64,000 nucleotides of DNA from Halobacteroides halobius DSM 5150 (GTDB lineage: Bacteria; Bacillota; Halanaerobiia; Halobacteroidales; Halobacteroidaceae). The translations under genes and the position numbers were made by a program. Below, piece after piece: positions 56,066 through 64,000 of this stretch (within the stretch, counting starts at the first letter, position 1; each line of letters begins with the position of its first letter). The notes beneath the pieces are model-generated. The model saw only the letters and a program-made list of their open reading frames with translations, was not told the DNA's origin and made no database searches. The DNA lies in contig NC_019978.1 of NCBI RefSeq assembly GCF_000328625.1, forward strand, positions 2,294,001 through 2,358,000, read 5' to 3'.

Positions 56066-58012
56066 TTATACTTCGAATTCATCAAGCAGAGATTGTAATT
56101 CTTGTGCCATATTAGCTAATTCTTGTGAAGAATTAGTGATTTCATTAGACATATTTTCTATATTATTTGAACTTGATCTTACCTGTTCACTTTTTTCTGC
56201 TACATCTTGAGTAGCATTAGCAGTTTGTTCAATTTGAGTTGCTGTTTCATTACTCGCTTCTTTAATTCCTATAAGTACTTTTTTAGTTTCTTTTGCTACC
56301 TTCTCTCCTTTTAATGCTTTATCTTTTACTTCTTTAACAGCTTCAAGGCCATTATTAGCTTTATCTTGAGTTTCAGTAATCAAATTTGCAATTTCTTGAG
56401 TAGCTTTATTAGTTTCTTCAGCTAATTCTCTTATTTCTTCAGCAACTACTGCAAAACCTGCTCCCGCTTCATTTTTATGATCTCTATTAAAATTCTCTAT
56501 AGAACTTGCTCTAGCCGCCTCAATCGATGCATTTAAAGCTAGCAAATTAGTTTGTTCAGCTATATTATTAATCATTTCGACTATTTTTCCAATTTCATTA
56601 GAGGTATTATCTAGTTCATTAATAATATTCACTGCCTGATTAGTTGATTGTTTAATTTCTCTTATACTAGTTAAAGTTTCATCTATATTTTCACTACCTA
56701 TTTTAGTTTTTGAACTGGATTGTTGAGCAAAACTAGTTACTTCTTGAGTACTAGCTGATATTTCTTCTATATTAGCAGATATATCCTCTACTAATTCATT
56801 AGAGGTTTCAATTGTAGCATTTCCTTCTTCAGCAGAAGCTGATAATTCCTCACTATAAGCTGATAAATCTTCTGTTTTGTCAAAAATATCTTCAATTATC
56901 TCTTTCAATGTGCCCCTCATTTCTTCTAATTTAATTCCTAATATTCCAATTTCATCTTTTCGCTCAATATTAATTTTTTCTTTTAAATTACCATCAGTAA
57001 ATTCATTAATATTATCAATCAAATTATCCAAAGGTTGATTTATATTCTTACTTATAAATAAAAATATAGCGCCTAATTGTAAAATAAAAATAATTAAGAA
57101 GAAAAAATAAGTCCAATAGACAACCCCTTTACTCTTATTTACAGTTTTCATAACCACTTCTTTCGGTTGTCCTAAAAGATAAATACCAACCTCTTCTCCA
57201 TTCACACTTTTAATTTTTTGAGCAGTTATTAAATAGTCATCAGTAAGATGATAACTTTGTATTGCTTTTCTCAAATCTAGATTACTAGTTACTGCAGATA
57301 AAAATTCTTGATTGACATCTTTTTGACTCAGTGTATATCCTTTAATTTTAGCTTTATCACTTATACCCTTAGCCATATTCAAATAATCATTTTTTAAAAA
57401 ATACAAGAAATCAATTTTATTAGATTTTAAAGTTCTCTTTATTGAATTAAGCCCACCTTCAAAATTAACCATTCCTACAAATTTTTCCTGATAATGTACA
57501 GGATATAATGCTTTTAACCTTAATCCCTTAGGTGATTCTTCCTTTGTAACTAGAGGCTCTTTAGAATCTTTTACCTTTTGATAAGCATCAGAATACTTTA
57601 GACTTTCACCAAAACTTTCGCTATTCCATGATTTAACAAAAGAGTTCAATTGCTTATCAATTAAATGTACTTTGATATTATTAAAACCAGTATTCTTTTT
57701 AAAAATTTGGCTATATTTCTCTAATATCTTTAGAGAATTTTTCCTATCTTTTTTAGCCATTGCTTCTTCAATAATTGGATTATTTGCTATTTGTAAAGAA
57801 TTTGTCAACCACACTTTTTTCTTAGCATTAATAGAATCCTTTAATTCAGTCTTTAATTTTTTACTAGTTGTTTTTAAATTTTCTTCTTCTAAATTATTAA
57901 GTTGAAATCTTCCTACCAAGCTAGATAAACCAATGAGTATCCCACCAATTATTAATAATAACAAAAGTATTTTCTTCTTAATATTCATATCTCTAAGTTT
58001 ACTTAAATTCAT
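56066..58012 (-). CDS. Methyl-accepting chemotaxis protein with an insertion at the signalling tip
   Basis: Transmembrane chemoreceptor, 648 residues from the ATG at 58012 (AGGAGGAG upstream). First membrane helix about 16-36, an extracellular ligand domain of about 250 residues (Cache-like), second helix about 310-330, HAMP (NQPLDNLIDNINEFTDG), and the methyl-accepting coiled coil. The highly conserved tip NLLALNASIEAARA ... GFAVVAEEIRELAEET is interrupted: SSIENFNRDHKNEAGA replaces the usual short GExGR, about 11 residues longer. The ligand is unknown. It is not near other che genes. Confidence 0.92.
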   Translation of the reverse strand: MNLSKLRDMNIKKKILLLLLIIGGILIGLSSLVGRFQLNNLEEENLKTTSKKLKTELKDSINAKKKVWLTNSLQIANNPIIEEAMAKKDRKNSLKILEKYSQIFKKNTGFNNIKVHLIDKQLNSFVKSWNSESFGESLKYSDAYQKVKDSKEPLVTKEESPKGLRLKALYPVHYQEKFVGMVNFEGGLNSIKRTLKSNKIDFLYFLKNDYLNMAKGISDKAKIKGYTLSQKDVNQEFLSAVTSNLDLRKAIQSYHLTDDYLITAQKIKSVNGEEVGIYLLGQPKEVVMKTVNKSKGVVYWTYFFFLIIFILQLGAIFLFISKNINQPLDNLIDNINEFTDGNLKEKINIERKDEIGILGIKLEEMRGTLKEIIEDIFDKTEDLSAYSEELSASAEEGNATIETSNELVEDISANIEEISASTQEVTSFAQQSSSKTKIGSENIDETLTSIREIKQSTNQAVNIINELDNTSNEIGKIVEMINNIAEQTNLLALNASIEAARASSIENFNRDHKNEAGAGFAVVAEEIRELAEETNKATQEIANLITETQDKANNGLEAVKEVKDKALKGEKVAKETKKVLIGIKEASNETATQIEQTANATQDVAEKSEQVRSSSNNIENMSNEITNSSQELANMAQELQSLLDEFEV

Positions 58013-58340
58013 TAGTTCTCCTCCTAATATATTAAAATTTATTATCATTACTAATAACTACTATTTTAATGCAAACATAATAGTTTATTACTACCTTTCC
58101 AATTTAAAAATTATATTTCATCATTTTTAAATAAAATAATATAATACCATTTTATGATATTGTATGTTATTTTTCAAACTTATTAAATATATATATAGGA
58201 GAATAGTAAATTTTACAAAGTAATAATTTTATTTTAATCATTAACACAACATAACTTTTTCGGGTAAAAGAGTTAGAGTTAAATCATTATAGGCAGAGGA
58301 GACAATATTGCCTCCTCTTTTAAAAATTACCAATTAGTCT
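58013..58340. other. AT-rich intergenic region with one hairpin
   Basis: Non-coding in all frames as far as I can see. It contains the leader of the chemoreceptor gene and, at 58295-58318, the hairpin AGAGGAG-ACAATATTGC-CTCCTCT. That hairpin ends in TTTT on the plus strand, but lies after the hemerythrin stop on the minus strand, so it may terminate hemerythrin transcription weakly. Confidence 0.5.
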
Positions 58341-58760
58341 CTATAAATGATTTGCAATTTTTTTATCTTCTTTAGCTATGTGATTAACAAACCAGTTCGT
58401 GATTTTATCTTTTAACTGATGCACTAATTCGATATTAATTTCATCAGTTTGCAAAAACTCATATTTAATCTGCTGCACTTCCTTAATAAACTTTTGATGT
58501 CTCTGTTTATGCTCTTCATAATAAGAATATTCCTTCTCCTGCAGCAATTGCTCTTCATCACTAAAATGAGTTTTAAAATAATCGGTTAAAAAATAAAATA
58601 CTTCAGCAATCTTCTCTCTATTAATTTCAGAATCTCTCTCTTTTTTTAATAATTGAGTACAAGCTGTAACAAACTTATCTCTTTCTTCAAAAAAAGCTCG
58701 ATGCTGTTGGTCAATTTTTTTAATTCCTAGTTCTAAACCTTGATTCCAATTTACTGTCAT
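58341..58760 (-). CDS. Bacteriohemerythrin
   Basis: A 139-residue single-domain hemerythrin that binds oxygen at a diiron site. Ligands in order: His in KKIDQQHRAFF, His and Glu in THFSDEEQLL, the HKQRHQKF pair, and HIAKED near the C-terminus. Starts at ATG 58760 with GAGAGGTGA upstream. In anaerobes such proteins serve oxygen sensing, delivery or scavenging. It lies next to a chemoreceptor gene, possibly an aerotaxis link. Confidence 0.93.
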   Translation of the reverse strand: MTVNWNQGLELGIKKIDQQHRAFFEERDKFVTACTQLLKKERDSEINREKIAEVFYFLTDYFKTHFSDEEQLLQEKEYSYYEEHKQRHQKFIKEVQQIKYEFLQTDEINIELVHQLKDKITNWFVNHIAKEDKKIANHL

Positions 58761-58774
58761 TATGATCACCTCTC

Positions 58775-58918
58775 TTATTTATTCATGATAGTTAAGTGAT
58801 TATAAGGAATCCCCATATTTTCTTGGTCAAATTCTTCTAAGTCATTAAAATCAGACTGCTGAGTACCTGGTTTTAGATTATCTAACTTTTGTTCTAAATT
58901 TTCCTTAAAACCCCGATG
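58775..58918 (-). pseudogene. Possible 3' remnant of a lost coding sequence
   Basis: A 47-codon open stretch with no usable start codon. It reads like protein (KENLEQKLDNLKPG, then DLEEFDQENMGIPYNH) with a stop at 58775, 14 bases before the hemerythrin gene. It is bounded on the other side by a terminator hairpin. I do not recognise the family. It may be the tail of a deleted gene, or chance. Confidence 0.3.
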
Positions 58919-58939
58919 CTAATATTAGCATCGGGGTTT
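58908..58939. terminator. Perfect palindromic terminator after the DICT gene
   Basis: AAACCCCGATGCTAAT and ATTAGCATCGGGGTTT form a perfect 32-base palindrome followed by TT on the minus strand. Confidence 0.8.
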
Positions 58940-59013: not shown

Positions 59014-59559
59014 TTAATAAGAATCAATCACATCTTCTAATAAATCAATAGCCTTTTTAATTACACGCGGATTATTACTCTTAGCACCCTTAAAGTTCCT
59101 CAATTTTTCATCTTCATAAACCCCAAAACCATCTAAATCATAAGCTACCATCATTGACTTAGCTAAGGGCTGGTCAATAACTAAAAACCATTCTCTTGTC
59201 AACTCATGTCCTTCTGGCAAGTAGATAAAATCAATATTTGGATGCGCCTTCAAAGTAGCATCATCTTCACCAAATAAATAAATTTGATCTACTGTATCAG
59301 CTAAATCAAAATAACGATCCCAGATATCTTCTGCTCGAGAAACCTTTTGAAAACCAGCATAAACAGTCGTGCCTTCAGCTTCATCCTTTGTCAATAACAC
59401 ACTCTCCATAATATAGCACATCTGCTCTAGTTTGGGAATTTCAGTCTCATACTTTAAAGAACGGGATTTTAATTTGCTATTACTAACCTCACCAGTTAAA
59501 TCTTCTACTGGACCTTCCAACTCATCAAAAATTTCTTGATACAGAGAAACTTCCTTCAT
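59014..59559 (-). CDS. Stand-alone DICT sensory-domain protein
   Basis: A 181-residue protein made of a single DICT domain, a sensor module usually attached to diguanylate cyclases or histidine kinases. Conserved features: the early Ser/Arg-rich strand, CYIMESVLL, VYAGFQKVSRAEDIW, the Asp-rich YLFGEDD, and EWFLVIDQPLAKSMMVAYD. There is no output domain, membrane segment or DNA-binding motif. It starts at ATG 59559 (GGAGGTG 7 bases upstream), 53 bases after cofH on the same strand, so it is probably in the cofG-cofH operon. Confidence 0.75.
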   Translation of the reverse strand: MKEVSLYQEIFDELEGPVEDLTGEVSNSKLKSRSLKYETEIPKLEQMCYIMESVLLTKDEAEGTTVYAGFQKVSRAEDIWDRYFDLADTVDQIYLFGEDDATLKAHPNIDFIYLPEGHELTREWFLVIDQPLAKSMMVAYDLDGFGVYEDEKLRNFKGAKSNNPRVIKKAIDLLEDVIDSY

Positions 59560-59611
59560 TAACAAGCACCTCCATTTAAAATATTAATCTATTTTAATTG
59601 TAATAATTAAC

Positions 59612-60700
59612 TTATACTAACTCATACAACGTTGTTCGCTGTTGAGGAATATAGCCCATGTCAGAAATCAAATTAACTATTCTCTTGGGAGGTAAATAGC
59701 CTCTAGTTTCTTTTCCAGCTGCCTTAGAAATATTTTCATTAAATAGAGTACCTCCTAAATCATTAGCTCCAGCAGTCAGCATAAGTTGGGCCAACTTTGT
59801 TCCATACTTAACCCAAGAAGCCTGCAAGTTAGGAATATTATCTAAAAATAACCGAGAGACAGCTATCATTAACAGATCTTCTCGACCAGTAGCAGCTTGG
59901 GTAACTTTTTCTGTTTGCCCTAAGGGAGTCTTTTGATAAACAAAAGATAGAGGTATAAACTCAGTAAAACCACCAGTTTGATCTTGAATATCTCGAATAA
60001 TTTTTAAATGTTTAACTCGTTGTTCCATTGTTTCTAGGTGACCGTATAAAATAGTGGCGGTTGATTTCAACCCTACTTTATGAGCTGCTTTAATAGCTTC
60101 AGTCCACTTAGAAGCAGAAATTTTATCTGGACAAATTTTATTTCTTACCTCAGGAACTAAAATTTCAGCTGCTGTTCCAGGAATAGAATCAAGCCCTGCT
60201 TCCTTTAAACACTGATACCCTTCCTTAAAATTCAATTCACTATTTCGCAACCCATGATTTAATTCAGCTGGAGTAATACCATGCAGATGAATTTCTGGTA
60301 ATCGCCTTTTAATTTTTTCTATAATTTCTAAATAAGTAGTTATGTTAAAATCAGGATGTAAACCACTAACTAAACAGATTTCAGTAATATCATGTTCTGC
60401 TACTTTGGCTAAGTGCTGGTCTAATTCTTGCTCACTAAGCTGATAACTAGATTGATGATCAATCTTTCGACTAAAACCACAAAATTTACAATCATTAACA
60501 CATACATTGGTCAAATTCAAATTATAATTAATTACATAAGTTATTTTATCATTAACTACTTGTTGCTTATGTTTCTCAGCTGCTTTGAGTACTGGATAAA
60601 TATCAACACCTTGGACAGTTAATAACTCTGTTGCTTCCTTAACTGTCAGTCTTGAACCTTCCCTAGCTTTAGTTAAAATTCTTTTCTGTTCTGTATTCAT
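59612..60700 (-). CDS. cofH: FO synthase subunit 2 (5-amino-6-(D-ribitylamino)uracil-tyrosine 4-hydroxyphenyl transferase)
   Basis: Radical-SAM enzyme of 362 residues that couples the flavin precursor with tyrosine-derived 4-hydroxybenzyl. [4Fe-4S] motif CVNDCKFC in NLTNVCVNDCKFCGFSRK, C-terminal NLQASWVKYG and the end PQQRTTLYE as in CofH. The menaquinone enzymes MqnC and MqnE are related, but the adjacent cofG and this C-terminus argue for CofH. Starts at ATG 60700, overlapping cofG by 32 bases. Product with CofG is FO, the chromophore of coenzyme F420. Confidence 0.9.
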   Translation of the reverse strand: MNTEQKRILTKAREGSRLTVKEATELLTVQGVDIYPVLKAAEKHKQQVVNDKITYVINYNLNLTNVCVNDCKFCGFSRKIDHQSSYQLSEQELDQHLAKVAEHDITEICLVSGLHPDFNITTYLEIIEKIKRRLPEIHLHGITPAELNHGLRNSELNFKEGYQCLKEAGLDSIPGTAAEILVPEVRNKICPDKISASKWTEAIKAAHKVGLKSTATILYGHLETMEQRVKHLKIIRDIQDQTGGFTEFIPLSFVYQKTPLGQTEKVTQAATGREDLLMIAVSRLFLDNIPNLQASWVKYGTKLAQLMLTAGANDLGGTLFNENISKAAGKETRGYLPPKRIVNLISDMGYIPQQRTTLYELV

Positions 60701-61652
60701 CTAGCCATCCCTCACTTTGTAAACAATTCCAAACTGGTTCTTTTAGCCATTCAGTAGTTAAATACTGTGAATAAACTGGCAATCGCTCTTGAAATTTAAT
60801 TTCTGGAAATCTGGTTTGTAATCTTTCAATAGCTGGCCATTTATGTTCTGGATTAATATAATCAATAGTTAAAGGAGAAATCCCTCCAATATCATCTATA
60901 AAATAAGATATAACTTGATTTAGATCCACTAAATTAGGTGGTACTTGTAGAGCAACTTCTTCTGGCAAAATCTTTCGAGCCAACTCTAAAGTATCAATCA
61001 AAACTCTTATTGATGGAGTAGTAATTTCAGTATCTATTGGTGGGTCAACTGGCTGAAGAATTATTTCCTGTAGGTGGCCATAAGTTGTCTGTAACTTTTT
61101 TAACTCAATTAAACTATCAATTCTATCCTGCCTACTTTCACCAATACCCAATAATAATCCAGAAGTAAATGGAATTTTAAGTTGACCAGCTGTAGATATT
61201 AATTTCTTCCTAAATACTGGTTTCTTAGTAGGAGATTGAGTATGGGCATTAACATCAGCAGTTGTTTCTAACATTAATCCCAAACTGGCATTATAGCGAG
61301 CTAACTTCTGCAATTTTTCTTTAGAGATTACTCCCAAATTAGAATGAGGTAATAAACCTATCTCTAAAGCTTGCTGACAAGCAGCCACTAACAAATCAAA
61401 TAAAGATTTAAATCCTGTTTCTAACTTTAATTTTTCCTTAAATCCAGCTACTTTTCTTGGTTTGCTTCCGCAAGTAAATAATACTTCTTTGCAACCAGCC
61501 TGTTTAGCTTGCTTTAAAGTAGCTTTTATCTGGGCCAAGGAAGTGATATTAGCTTTAGACAGAGGTTTCTTGAACTGACAGTAATTACAATTATTATAAC
61601 AAGCATTGGTTAGTGGAATAAATATATTTTTAGAATAAGTTACAGTTTTCAT
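60669..61652 (-). CDS. cofG: FO synthase subunit 1 (7,8-didemethyl-8-hydroxy-5-deazariboflavin synthase)
   Basis: Radical-SAM enzyme of 327 residues that closes the deazaflavin ring. FIPLTNACYNNCNYCQFKK carries the CxxxCxxC cluster motif. VLFTCGSKPRKV stands where most CofG have a GE(K/R)P sequence. LPHSNLGVIS, GLMLETTA and FTSGLLLGIGE are typical. GGGAGGCC precedes the ATG. First gene of cofG-cofH-DICT. No cofC, cofD or cofE is in the window, so F420 itself is unproven; FO alone can serve as a photolyase antenna. Confidence 0.9.
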   Translation of the reverse strand: MKTVTYSKNIFIPLTNACYNNCNYCQFKKPLSKANITSLAQIKATLKQAKQAGCKEVLFTCGSKPRKVAGFKEKLKLETGFKSLFDLLVAACQQALEIGLLPHSNLGVISKEKLQKLARYNASLGLMLETTADVNAHTQSPTKKPVFRKKLISTAGQLKIPFTSGLLLGIGESRQDRIDSLIELKKLQTTYGHLQEIILQPVDPPIDTEITTPSIRVLIDTLELARKILPEEVALQVPPNLVDLNQVISYFIDDIGGISPLTIDYINPEHKWPAIERLQTRFPEIKFQERLPVYSQYLTTEWLKEPVWNCLQSEGWLDEYRTEKNFN

Positions 61653-62021
61653 TTGGCCTCCCTAATCATTAATGATTACTAATATTATCAGATTTCTGTA
61701 CTATTTATTTTCTTAATTCTTTCATCCTACTAATCATATTATTAAAATCAATAACTATTATTAGTAATAATTATATCATGCAATTATTGCTAAGTAAACA
61801 CTTCTCTATACTTTGATAACGTCAATTTTTTATAGATTAATACTTAAAATTATTTTATCAATAATAATAACTACAATAATAACTACGATTAATAATCTTT
61901 TGACATAAACTATTTTTCTTTTTATATGTAACATAAGGACCAATAATTACCTCAAAAATTGATTGTAGCAAATTTTAATTATTAATTCAATAATTAACTT
62001 TATTTGCTATTTAGACAAAAT
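61653..62021. other. AT-rich intergenic region upstream of cofG
   Basis: About 370 bases without coding potential. It contains the cofG promoter (61770-61798). On the plus strand, TTGACA near 61900 with TATATG 17 bases on looks like a promoter but leads to no plus-strand gene. No riboswitch was recognised. Confidence 0.6.
61770..61798 (-). promoter_or_regulatory. Promoter of cofG-cofH-DICT
   Basis: TTTACT (61798-61793), 17 bases, TATAAT (61775-61770). The leader is about 110 bases long. Confidence 0.65.
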
Positions 62022-62056
62022 AATAAGCCCCTCAGCAAAATGCTAAGGGGCTTATT
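62022..62056 (-). terminator. Terminator of the CoA-disulfide-reductase-like gene
   Basis: AATAAGCCCCTTAGC pairs with GCTGAGGGGCTTATT (one wobble, loop of 5), followed by ATTTTGTC on the minus strand. Confidence 0.88.
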
Positions 62057-62059
62057 ATA

Positions 62060-64000
62060 CTAAATAAATAAGCTCATATTTGATTGGTCAGCAGAGTTTA
62101 AGAAAGTAGCTACTCCACCAACTTCAACTCCATCAATTAATTCTTCTTTTTGAATACCTAGCATATCCATCGTCATCTGGCAAGCAACTAATCTAACTCC
62201 ATTCTCTTGAGCTTGCTTCATTAATGATTCTAAAGAATCCACTCCTTTATTCTCCATTACATTTCTAATCATCTTAGGGCCCATGCCAAACATATTCATA
62301 TTTGATAGTGGTAACTCTTTACTACCTTGGGGCATCATCTTGCCAAACATCTGATCCATAAGTCCCTTATCTACATCTATATCTTGATTCTTCCGTAAGA
62401 CATTAAGCCCCCAGAAAGTAAAGAATAAGGTAACATCTTTACCCATTGAAGCTGCACCATTAGCTATGATAAAGGAAGCTATTGCTTTATCTAAACTACC
62501 TTCAAAGACAACCATTGTAGCACCATTTTTAGCTGGAGCACTTTGATTATTTCCTAAAGGTTGATCAGATTGACCTTTTTTAATCTCAGCTGTGAATTCA
62601 CTCCCTTGATTACCCGTAGTTAATAAAGTATTACCTGTGCTTTGACACCAGGCCTTAATATCAGCTGTAAACCCTGGATCAGTAGCTACAACTTCTAAAA
62701 TATCTCCATCATTAAGCTCTTGTAGCTTTTTAGAGACCTGCATGATTGGCCCTGGACACTGTAATCCACAGGCATCAAGCTTAACTCTTTCTCCTTCACT
62801 AGTAGCCATTTCTATTTCCTCCTCTGCTTGTTGTCCTTCTTCGGGGTTAGAAATACTAGCTAATTTATCCTGATTTGGTGTTGTAGAATCATCAACTACC
62901 TCATTTTGGTCCTTTTGAACTGCACTATATAGCTTATATCCACCAGCTAAGTTTTTAACATTATTAAATCCATTTTGTAACAAGATTCTAGTTGCAATAT
63001 AACCTCTTAATCCAACAGCACAATAAACTACTATTTCTTTATCTGAATCCAATTCATCTAATCTATCTCGCAACTGATTTAACGGAATATTTACTGAATT
63101 ATCTATCTTACCTAACTGTACTTCTATTTCTTCTCTAACATCTAAAATAATCGTCTCAGAATCTAAATCGGCAATTTCATGCCATTGAATAACATCCATC
63201 TTACCAGTTAAAATATTACCTGCTGTAAATCCAGCCATATTAACAGGATCTTTAGCTGAACCAAATGGTGGTGCATAAGCTAAATCTATATCTTGTAGAT
63301 CAAAAACTGTCTTTTCAAATCTAATTGCTGTAGCTAAAACATCAATTCGTTTATCTACTCCATCATATCCTATAGCCTGAGCTCCTAATAGCTTCCCGTC
63401 TTTAGGAGTGAAAAGAATCTTAAGCATTAATGGTACTGCACCAGGATAATAACCAGCGTGATTTTTCTTATTAATATAAGAAACCTGATAATCAATACCT
63501 GCTGCTTGAAGTTGCTTTTCATTATTTCCAGTAGCTCCTACTTCTAAATCGAAGACTTTGGCTATAGCAGTTCCTTGACTACCTTTAAATTTCTCCTTGT
63601 CTCCCACTAAATTATTAGCTACAATCCGACCTTGTTTATTAGCAGGTCCTGCTAGTGGAATATGGGCTGGTTGCCCAGTGATTACATCAGTTACTTCAAT
63701 AGCATCACCAATTGCATAGATCTTCTCATCAGAAGTTTGTAAATAATCATTAACCTTAATTGCTCTTGTTTGGCCAATCTCTAACCCTGCTTCTTCAGCC
63801 AATTTAGTATTAGGGCTAACTCCTGCTGACATAATAACTAAATCAGTTGTTAATTCAGTTCCATCCTGTAACTCAACTTTCTTTCTTTTATCTTGGTCTG
63901 CAAAGCCAGCTACTCCATTATCTAAATATAACTCAATCCCTTTCATCCGGAGATGATTATGAACTTGAGCTGCCATTTCTCTATCAATTGGCCCTAGAAC
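62060..64000 (-). CDS. CoA-disulfide reductase-type flavoprotein with rhodanese, TusA and DsrE domains, N-terminus cut by the window edge
   Basis: At least 646 residues are present and the frame is open to position 64000 (VLGPIDREMAAQ precedes the first in-window ATG), so the FAD-binding N-terminus is missing. Order: pyridine-nucleotide-disulfide oxidoreductase with the second FAD motif IYAIGDAIEV and dimerisation domain; rhodanese (about 270-360) with active Cys in VVYCAVGLRGY; an acidic linker; TusA with CGLQCPGPIMQV; and a C-terminal DsrE-like domain (MVVFEGSLDKAIASFIIANG). It is likely a reductase/relay for persulfide or polysulfide sulfur. Such architectures are known from anaerobes, with varied substrates. 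Confidence 0.9.
   Translation of the reverse strand, partial: VLGPIDREMAAQVHNHLRMKGIELYLDNGVAGFADQDKRKKVELQDGTELTTDLVIMSAGVSPNTKLAEEAGLEIGQTRAIKVNDYLQTSDEKIYAIGDAIEVTDVITGQPAHIPLAGPANKQGRIVANNLVGDKEKFKGSQGTAIAKVFDLEVGATGNNEKQLQAAGIDYQVSYINKKNHAGYYPGAVPLMLKILFTPKDGKLLGAQAIGYDGVDKRIDVLATAIRFEKTVFDLQDIDLAYAPPFGSAKDPVNMAGFTAGNILTGKMDVIQWHEIADLDSETIILDVREEIEVQLGKIDNSVNIPLNQLRDRLDELDSDKEIVVYCAVGLRGYIATRILLQNGFNNVKNLAGGYKLYSAVQKDQNEVVDDSTTPNQDKLASISNPEEGQQAEEEIEMATSEGERVKLDACGLQCPGPIMQVSKKLQELNDGDILEVVATDPGFTADIKAWCQSTGNTLLTTGNQGSEFTAEIKKGQSDQPLGNNQSAPAKNGATMVVFEGSLDKAIASFIIANGAASMGKDVTLFFTFWGLNVLRKNQDIDVDKGLMDQMFGKMMPQGSKELPLSNMNMFGMGPKMIRNVMENKGVDSLESLMKQAQENGVRLVACQMTMDMLGIQKEELIDGVEVGGVATFLNSADQSNMSLFI

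Follow-up and report, generated by a model that had tools for sequence, protein, structure and literature searches.

Why would a bacterium with apparently no known use for the deazaflavin FO (8-hydroxy-5-deazariboflavin) carry the genes to make it, and why should these genes lead into one for a DICT domain, which a 2022 review lists among domains without discernible purpose (PMC8846402)? The locus that raises this question lies in a stretch of 64,000 nucleotides from the salt-loving anaerobe Halobacteroides halobius DSM 5150 (NC_019978.1, positions 2,294,001 to 2,358,000; hereafter the window), part of a genome of 2,649,255 bp on a single contig. Judged by a gene of the locus, its closest named relatives are Halanaerobacter, Natroniella and Fuchsiella, which places it in the Halanaerobiales.

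The cofG-cofH-DICT locus

The features of the locus are, in order of transcription and in window coordinates:

62020..62058, minus strand: intrinsic terminator of the preceding operon, which parts that operon from cofG (18-pair stem, 7 GC pairs, T tail)
61653..62019, minus strand: intergenic region upstream of cofG, with a promoter-like TTTACT-17-TATAAT with TG at 61798-61770 (a consensus match only, one of 30 such sites found against 23 expected by chance)
60669..61652, minus strand: cofG, FO synthase subunit, 327 aa (NF004884, TIGR03550; CX3CX2C)
59612..60700, minus strand: cofH, 5-amino-6-(D-ribitylamino)uracil--tyrosine 4-hydroxyphenyl transferase, 362 aa (NF005609, TIGR03551; CX3CX2C)
59014..59559, minus strand: stand-alone DICT protein, 181 aa (PF10069; alignment of relatives; predicted model, pLDDT 92.9)
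58908..58939, no strand assigned: 32-bp perfect inverted repeat AAACCCCGATGC...GCATCGGGGTTT just 3' of DICT, read from the sequence, a candidate operon end

The cofG start codon (ATG) is preceded by a ribosome-binding-like AGGGAGG, cofG and cofH overlap by 32 bp, and 52 bp separate cofH from DICT. With a terminator ahead of cofG (62058-62020) and the inverted repeat behind DICT (58939-58908), the three genes likely form one operon; the repeat falls outside the list from our terminator scan, which demands a loop of 3-8 bases. No output gene was found within this operon. Directly downstream of it lies a bacteriohemerythrin gene (58341-58769, minus strand), followed by a gene for a methyl-accepting chemotaxis protein (MCP) of 660 aa with two membrane helices (56066-58048, minus strand). 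A hemerythrin gene also adjoins DICT in Fuchsiella (L038:5023-5451), and these neighbours possibly link the DICT locus to oxygen. On the other side, the ORF at 62060-63976 (minus strand) encodes a multi-domain sulfur carrier protein, in which a part resembling the C-terminus of CoA-disulfide reductase is fused to rhodanese, TusA and DsrE2.

Identity of CofG and CofH and the fate of FO

The original prediction had named the first two genes as overlapping cofG and cofH, and both proteins pass the cut-offs of the corresponding NCBIfam equivalogs: CofG scores 372 bits with NF004884 (cut-off 209) and 356 with TIGR03550 (cut-off 213), CofH 456 bits with NF005609 (cut-off 426) and 431 with TIGR03551 (cut-off 374). 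The radical-SAM motif CX3CX2C is at residue 18 of CofG and residue 67 of CofH. We rejected an identity as MqnC or MqnE of menaquinone synthesis, as scores stayed under the cut-offs of those families; CofH reaches 357 with MqnC, against that model's own 428, and its CofH scores far exceed those with both Mqn models.

That prediction had also suggested a search of the genome for photolyase and cofD, which turned up neither. The DNA photolyase/cryptochrome domain PF00875 has no match genome-wide (E <= 0.001), and the same search does find it in 8 of the 14 controls; production of FO for a photolyase was rejected for want of this domain. Likewise, no protein in the genome matches CofD over the cut-off; the sole weak CofD-like match is YvcK (TIGR01826, 408 bits against a cut-off of 196). 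The established F420 pathway needs CofD beyond FO (PMC8498797). With CofG and CofH present and CofD absent, FO can be made in this genome but F420 cannot be completed by the known route, and FO should therefore be an end product with no known user in the genome. A tie between DICT and FO, if true, would explain FO synthesis in some photolyase-free, F420-free Bacillota.

Co-occurrence of cofGH and DICT

Conservation of cofGH-DICT in relatives had been set in advance as the test on which the idea of a functional link could fail, and the linkage holds. In an order-level sample of 13 genomes, CofG exceeds the cut-off in four, and in all four DICT directly follows cofH; a fifth genome has DICT but no CofG. 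Across 398 genomes of the phylum, CofG is present in three and DICT over the cut-off in seven, with DICT in the operon in 3/3 CofG genomes (Fisher p = 3e-6). Among 299 genomes of the Bacillales (the order of Alkalicoccus), CofG occurs in four, DICT in 13 and both in three (Fisher p = 2.5e-4), and in each of these three the genes lie about 1.6 kb and never more than about 2 kb apart, with a chemotaxis transducer in between. These p values ignore kinship, and trees were built for that reason. One Bacillales-order genome, G585 (L087, L090), has two cofG genes and no DICT; one of its CofG copies is sister to the DICT-linked CofG of Bacillales, and the other groups with CofG of the F420 type.

Two kinds of supply gene beside DICT

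The linkage widens beyond cofGH. By a tblastn map and reading of ORFs, we assembled the loci of 29 Bacillota-type genomes with a stand-alone DICT (a remote DICT from Acidobacteriota, L072, was left out of the 29). Each genome falls into one of the following groups:

cofGH adjoins DICT, 8 of 29: G000 (the window), G004, G006, G009, G102, G409, G521, G690
A RibU-like ECF S component adjoins DICT, 17 of 29: G011, G063, G212, G407, G408, G410, G411, G413, G450, G522, G556, G561, G586, G601, G612, G650, G699
DICT-type RibU on another contig, without FMN riboswitch: G405, a metagenome assembly
Neither cofG nor a DICT-type RibU found, 3 of 29: G389, G406, G412

One or the other supply gene thus stands beside DICT in 25 of the 29 loci and both together in none; CofG was not found in the RibU-DICT genomes, nor RibU in any of the eight cofGH-DICT genomes. 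All 17 RibU-DICT genomes encode a pair of RibU-like proteins and no more, one copy beside DICT and the other at a separate site, whereas 41 genomes without DICT have one or none and never two (Fisher p = 7e-15 for RibU duplication versus DICT, with 40 of the 41 controls used). The two copies also differ in their control, in that an FMN riboswitch lies upstream of 13 of the 15 scanned copies away from DICT but of none of the 17 linked to it. In the DICT-RibU region of G601 (L118:1195-1388) there are two Bacillaceae-1 RNA matches. PF12822 was found in several DICT-linked importer copies, and the best solved-structure match, for the one copy searched, is RibU 3p5n (E 7.8e-24).

The DICT-linked RibU would thus match the picture of an importer that was duplicated and then took on a new task, and we infer FO as its cargo since cofGH replaces RibU beside DICT. 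Whatever the exact ligand, the genomic link between DICT and genes of deazaflavin or flavin supply is well supported. For stand-alone DICT such a tie appears to be new as far as the literature was found: our full-text search returned no paper tying DICT to deazaflavins or flavin import, though most subscription papers lie outside such a search and priority is uncertain.

Independent recruitment

In a CofG tree that includes archaeal, proteobacterial and actinobacterial sequences, the DICT-linked CofG sequences fall into two separate lineages, one from the window's kin and one from Bacillales, and the starred branches force at least two changes. The RibU tree likewise has two DICT-linked groups, both on long branches, which never form one group in bootstraps. 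In the tree of DICT itself the supply label switches repeatedly, with at least three changes forced for cofGH and at least three for RibU, as seen in the close relatives G009 (cofGH) and G011 (RibU). These topologies speak for two or more separate occasions on which cofGH was joined to DICT, and for two or more in the case of RibU.

They bear on a further explanation of the linkage, that cofGH-DICT is one horizontally spread gene island without any functional tie. Few genomes carry it and its distribution is patchy, as such an island would predict, but the DICT link occurs in two CofG lineages unrelated to each other and in two groups of RibU, with differing gene orders. Hitch-hiking is already disfavoured by the trees, and we think it highly improbable.

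No core column of the DICT alignment splits cofGH-linked from RibU-linked sequences in both lineages; only a site in the variable C-terminal tail does so. Because no core column separates the supply types and the supply has switched repeatedly, a single ligand is suggested, and one ligand with two ways to get it would be the simplest reading.

The DICT protein

The third gene had been described as encoding a DICT domain and nothing else, which agrees with what we find: PF10069 matches at 47.7 bits (cut-off 23.8) and is the only domain detected, with no Pfam domain of the LOV/PAS, BLUF or cryptochrome type in the protein. It is also the only DICT gene of its genome. The start codon needs revision from TTG 59565 to ATG 59559, which is most likely the true start since relatives begin MKE(V/I)SLY.

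A sequence search returned no significant solved relative of DICT, and its fold was approached through a confident predicted model (pLDDT 92.9 as above, pTM 0.90). Foldseek with this model found the phospholipase-D-fold proteins polyphosphate kinase (PPK) and NucT. A second comparison placed the sugar-binding domain of TrmB at the top (Z 12.6, rmsd 2.5 over 126 residues), with NucT at Z 11.5 (rmsd 2.7, 129 residues) and PPK at Z 11.2 (rmsd 3.1, 144 residues). The model thus points to a phospholipase-D-like fold, and none of the 33 DICT sequences in the alignment has the HKD catalytic motif (HxKx4D), so that DICT is predicted to be a catalytically dead domain of this kind. TrmB, an archaeal regulator, offers a precedent for a dead phospholipase-D-like domain that serves in ligand binding. 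That flavoproteins are missing from the list of fold matches is no evidence against flavin binding. The invariant residues Glu52, Phe70, Gln71, Glu123, Trp124, Arg154 and Phe156 are candidates for a pocket.

Outputs and neighbouring regulators

At 16 Bacillales-type loci the gene beside DICT encodes a transducer that has an MCP signalling domain but lacks a sensor domain; the transducers checked have short N-terminal membrane helices at most, and one has none. Operons of DICT, RibU and MCP occur in 11 Bacillales-type genomes. In three genomes (G004, G063, G212) a DICT-HD-GYP protein follows instead.

A regulator of the XRE type with B12-binding domains adjoins the DICT operon in six genomes, though none was found at the window's own locus. 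The motifs GxxW, EH, GxxH and GxxxP, a published signature of light-responsive cobalamin-binding domains (PMC11796333), are all present in three of these regulators (G009, G102, G011) and incomplete in the other three (G389, G407, G410). The solved structures closest to them include those of CtMerR (8jbs), which is light-responsive, and CarH, and they score below the NCBIfam cut-off for CarH. A role of DICT in light response had been predicted earlier (PMC8612252); together with these cobalamin-photoreceptor-like neighbours, it suggests that light may be the stimulus.

A putative sensor cassette and its alternatives

We propose that cofG-cofH-DICT is a sensor cassette, in which CofG and CofH would make FO, and DICT, as a dead phospholipase-D-like domain, would bind FO or a close flavin relative as a sensing cofactor. 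In relatives, a dedicated, duplicated ECF subunit of the RibU type would import the ligand, probably FO, in place of synthesis by cofGH. Bound DICT would then hand its state to an output that differs among genomes, be it a sensor-less chemotaxis transducer or a DICT-HD-GYP protein acting through c-di-GMP; in the window genome the output would be a partner in trans. That DICT binds locally made or imported FO and uses it as a cofactor to sense a stimulus, probably blue light, seems to us rather probable. Within this proposal we infer both the choice of FO over other flavins, with its binding to DICT, and that of blue light over redox as the stimulus. For the genomes with cofGH, binding of FO itself is likely because the window genome yielded no other known user of FO; for those with RibU, riboflavin is a possible ligand. 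The original prediction of a link between DICT and a deazaflavin stands as a conserved linkage, and is broadened by the 17 genomes in which RibU replaces cofGH. As to its further suggestion of a ligand or photoreceptor chromophore, binding of FO would be a prediction, and light is only suggested by the cobalamin-photoreceptor-like neighbours.

Some observations weigh against this proposal. G585 has cofG without DICT, the DICT genes examined on haloarchaeal plasmids lack a nearby supply gene, and the window operon is without an output gene. The known relatives of RibU handle riboflavin, which means that riboflavin itself, FMN or some further flavin may be the shared ligand. The three genomes with neither cofG nor a DICT-type RibU imply that FO is not obligatory everywhere, or that it has another route of entry. 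It is conceivable that the ligand of DICT is in every genome an ordinary flavin, either riboflavin or FMN, and that cofGH serves some other FO-dependent protein co-regulated with it, for which the same three genomes and the riboflavin carried by RibU importers of characterised species would both speak. We consider this unlikely, given that cofGH and RibU swap at the same position beside DICT and that every DICT-RibU genome already owns another, usually FMN-controlled, RibU. Nor does it seem probable that free flavin or deazaflavin is itself the stimulus, an environmental or quorum-type signal that RibU imports and DICT detects, with the MCP giving chemotaxis in its direction. The DICT-RibU-MCP operons are arranged as such a chemosensor would need, and the relatives of RibU are vitamin importers, but eight genomes would make the ligand by neighbouring genes, which is more in keeping with a cofactor than with a signal from outside; we give this alternative a slim chance.

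More serious, if still on the unlikely side, is a redox or energy sensor in which DICT binds FO or a flavin and reports the redox state rather than light, much as FAD reports redox in the aerotaxis transducer Aer. For anaerobes such as Halanaerobiales, the low potential of a deazaflavin would be apt. The MCP outputs agree with redox sensing, and so do the hemerythrin genes close to DICT in both the window and Fuchsiella and a globin-coupled sensor beside a haloarchaeal DICT. It is the XRE-B12 regulators at six DICT loci, with cobalamin-photoreceptor motifs that are complete at three and incomplete at three, that point to light instead.

Relation to known systems

FO from FO synthase is used without conversion to F420 as the antenna of cyanobacterial and other DNA photolyases, for example in Synechococcus elongatus (PMC9178010), where it harvests light; the genome studied here shares the use of unconverted FO that we propose, but it has no photolyase or cryptochrome gene, and its FO genes are linked to DICT instead. 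The F420 loci of Leisingera and Paracoccus have homologous cofG and cofH, accompanied there by cofC, cofD, cofE and an F420-dependent oxidoreductase, none of which lies near cofGH in the window. RibU, the ECF S component for riboflavin (3p5n, 5kbw), is the best solved match of the DICT-linked importer, which differs in being a second, divergent copy on long branches and without an FMN riboswitch. On the output side, the DICT-HD-GYP proteins of relatives resemble fusions in Microcystis (PMC7063779), while DICT of the window stands alone. CarH and other cobalamin photoreceptors (PMC11796333) carry the same four motifs as some of the XRE-B12 neighbours, but they have a DNA-binding domain of the MerR rather than the XRE type, and the motifs are incomplete in 3/6 of the neighbours. 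As for the division of labour, an archaeal sensory rhodopsin also pairs a separate sensor protein with a transducer, Htr, that has no sensor domain of its own. The working plan of DICT and its MCP would be similar, although the proteins are unrelated and the DICT-MCP interaction is suggested by adjacency only.

The consistent association of DICT with genes of deazaflavin or flavin supply offers a concrete candidate for its ligand and, if the proposal is true, predicts an FO importer and possibly a family of blue-light receptors for optogenetics in anaerobes. A bolder version, which we offer tentatively and would not bet on, would make DICT a new class of photoreceptor: FO would be its blue-light chromophore, made locally or brought in by the first known FO importer (the RibU paralogue), and DICT would drive phototaxis, c-di-GMP signalling or transcription. 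The class would then take in cyanobacterial and haloarchaeal DICT proteins as well.

DICT beyond the Bacillota

Among control genomes outside the Bacillota, DICT occurs in 2/14, namely Synechococcus elongatus and Haloferax volcanii, both from groups known to make deazaflavins. DICT in members of such groups fits the proposed link, with two genomes being too few for a test. On plasmids, relatives of DICT are haloarchaeal only and of weak similarity, and no supply gene lies beside DICT at the three loci viewed; since haloarchaea make deazaflavins from chromosomal genes, the missing plasmid genes say little. On a Haloterrigena plasmid (L165:5881-7026), a single cofG has rdfA and an SMC-like gene as neighbours, with no annotated cofH adjoining. 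Two haloarchaeal plasmid DICT proteins (L162:4617-5345 and L164:4662-5387) stand alone; one of their genes lies between heme biosynthesis and other genes, and one beside a globin-coupled sensor chemotaxis gene.
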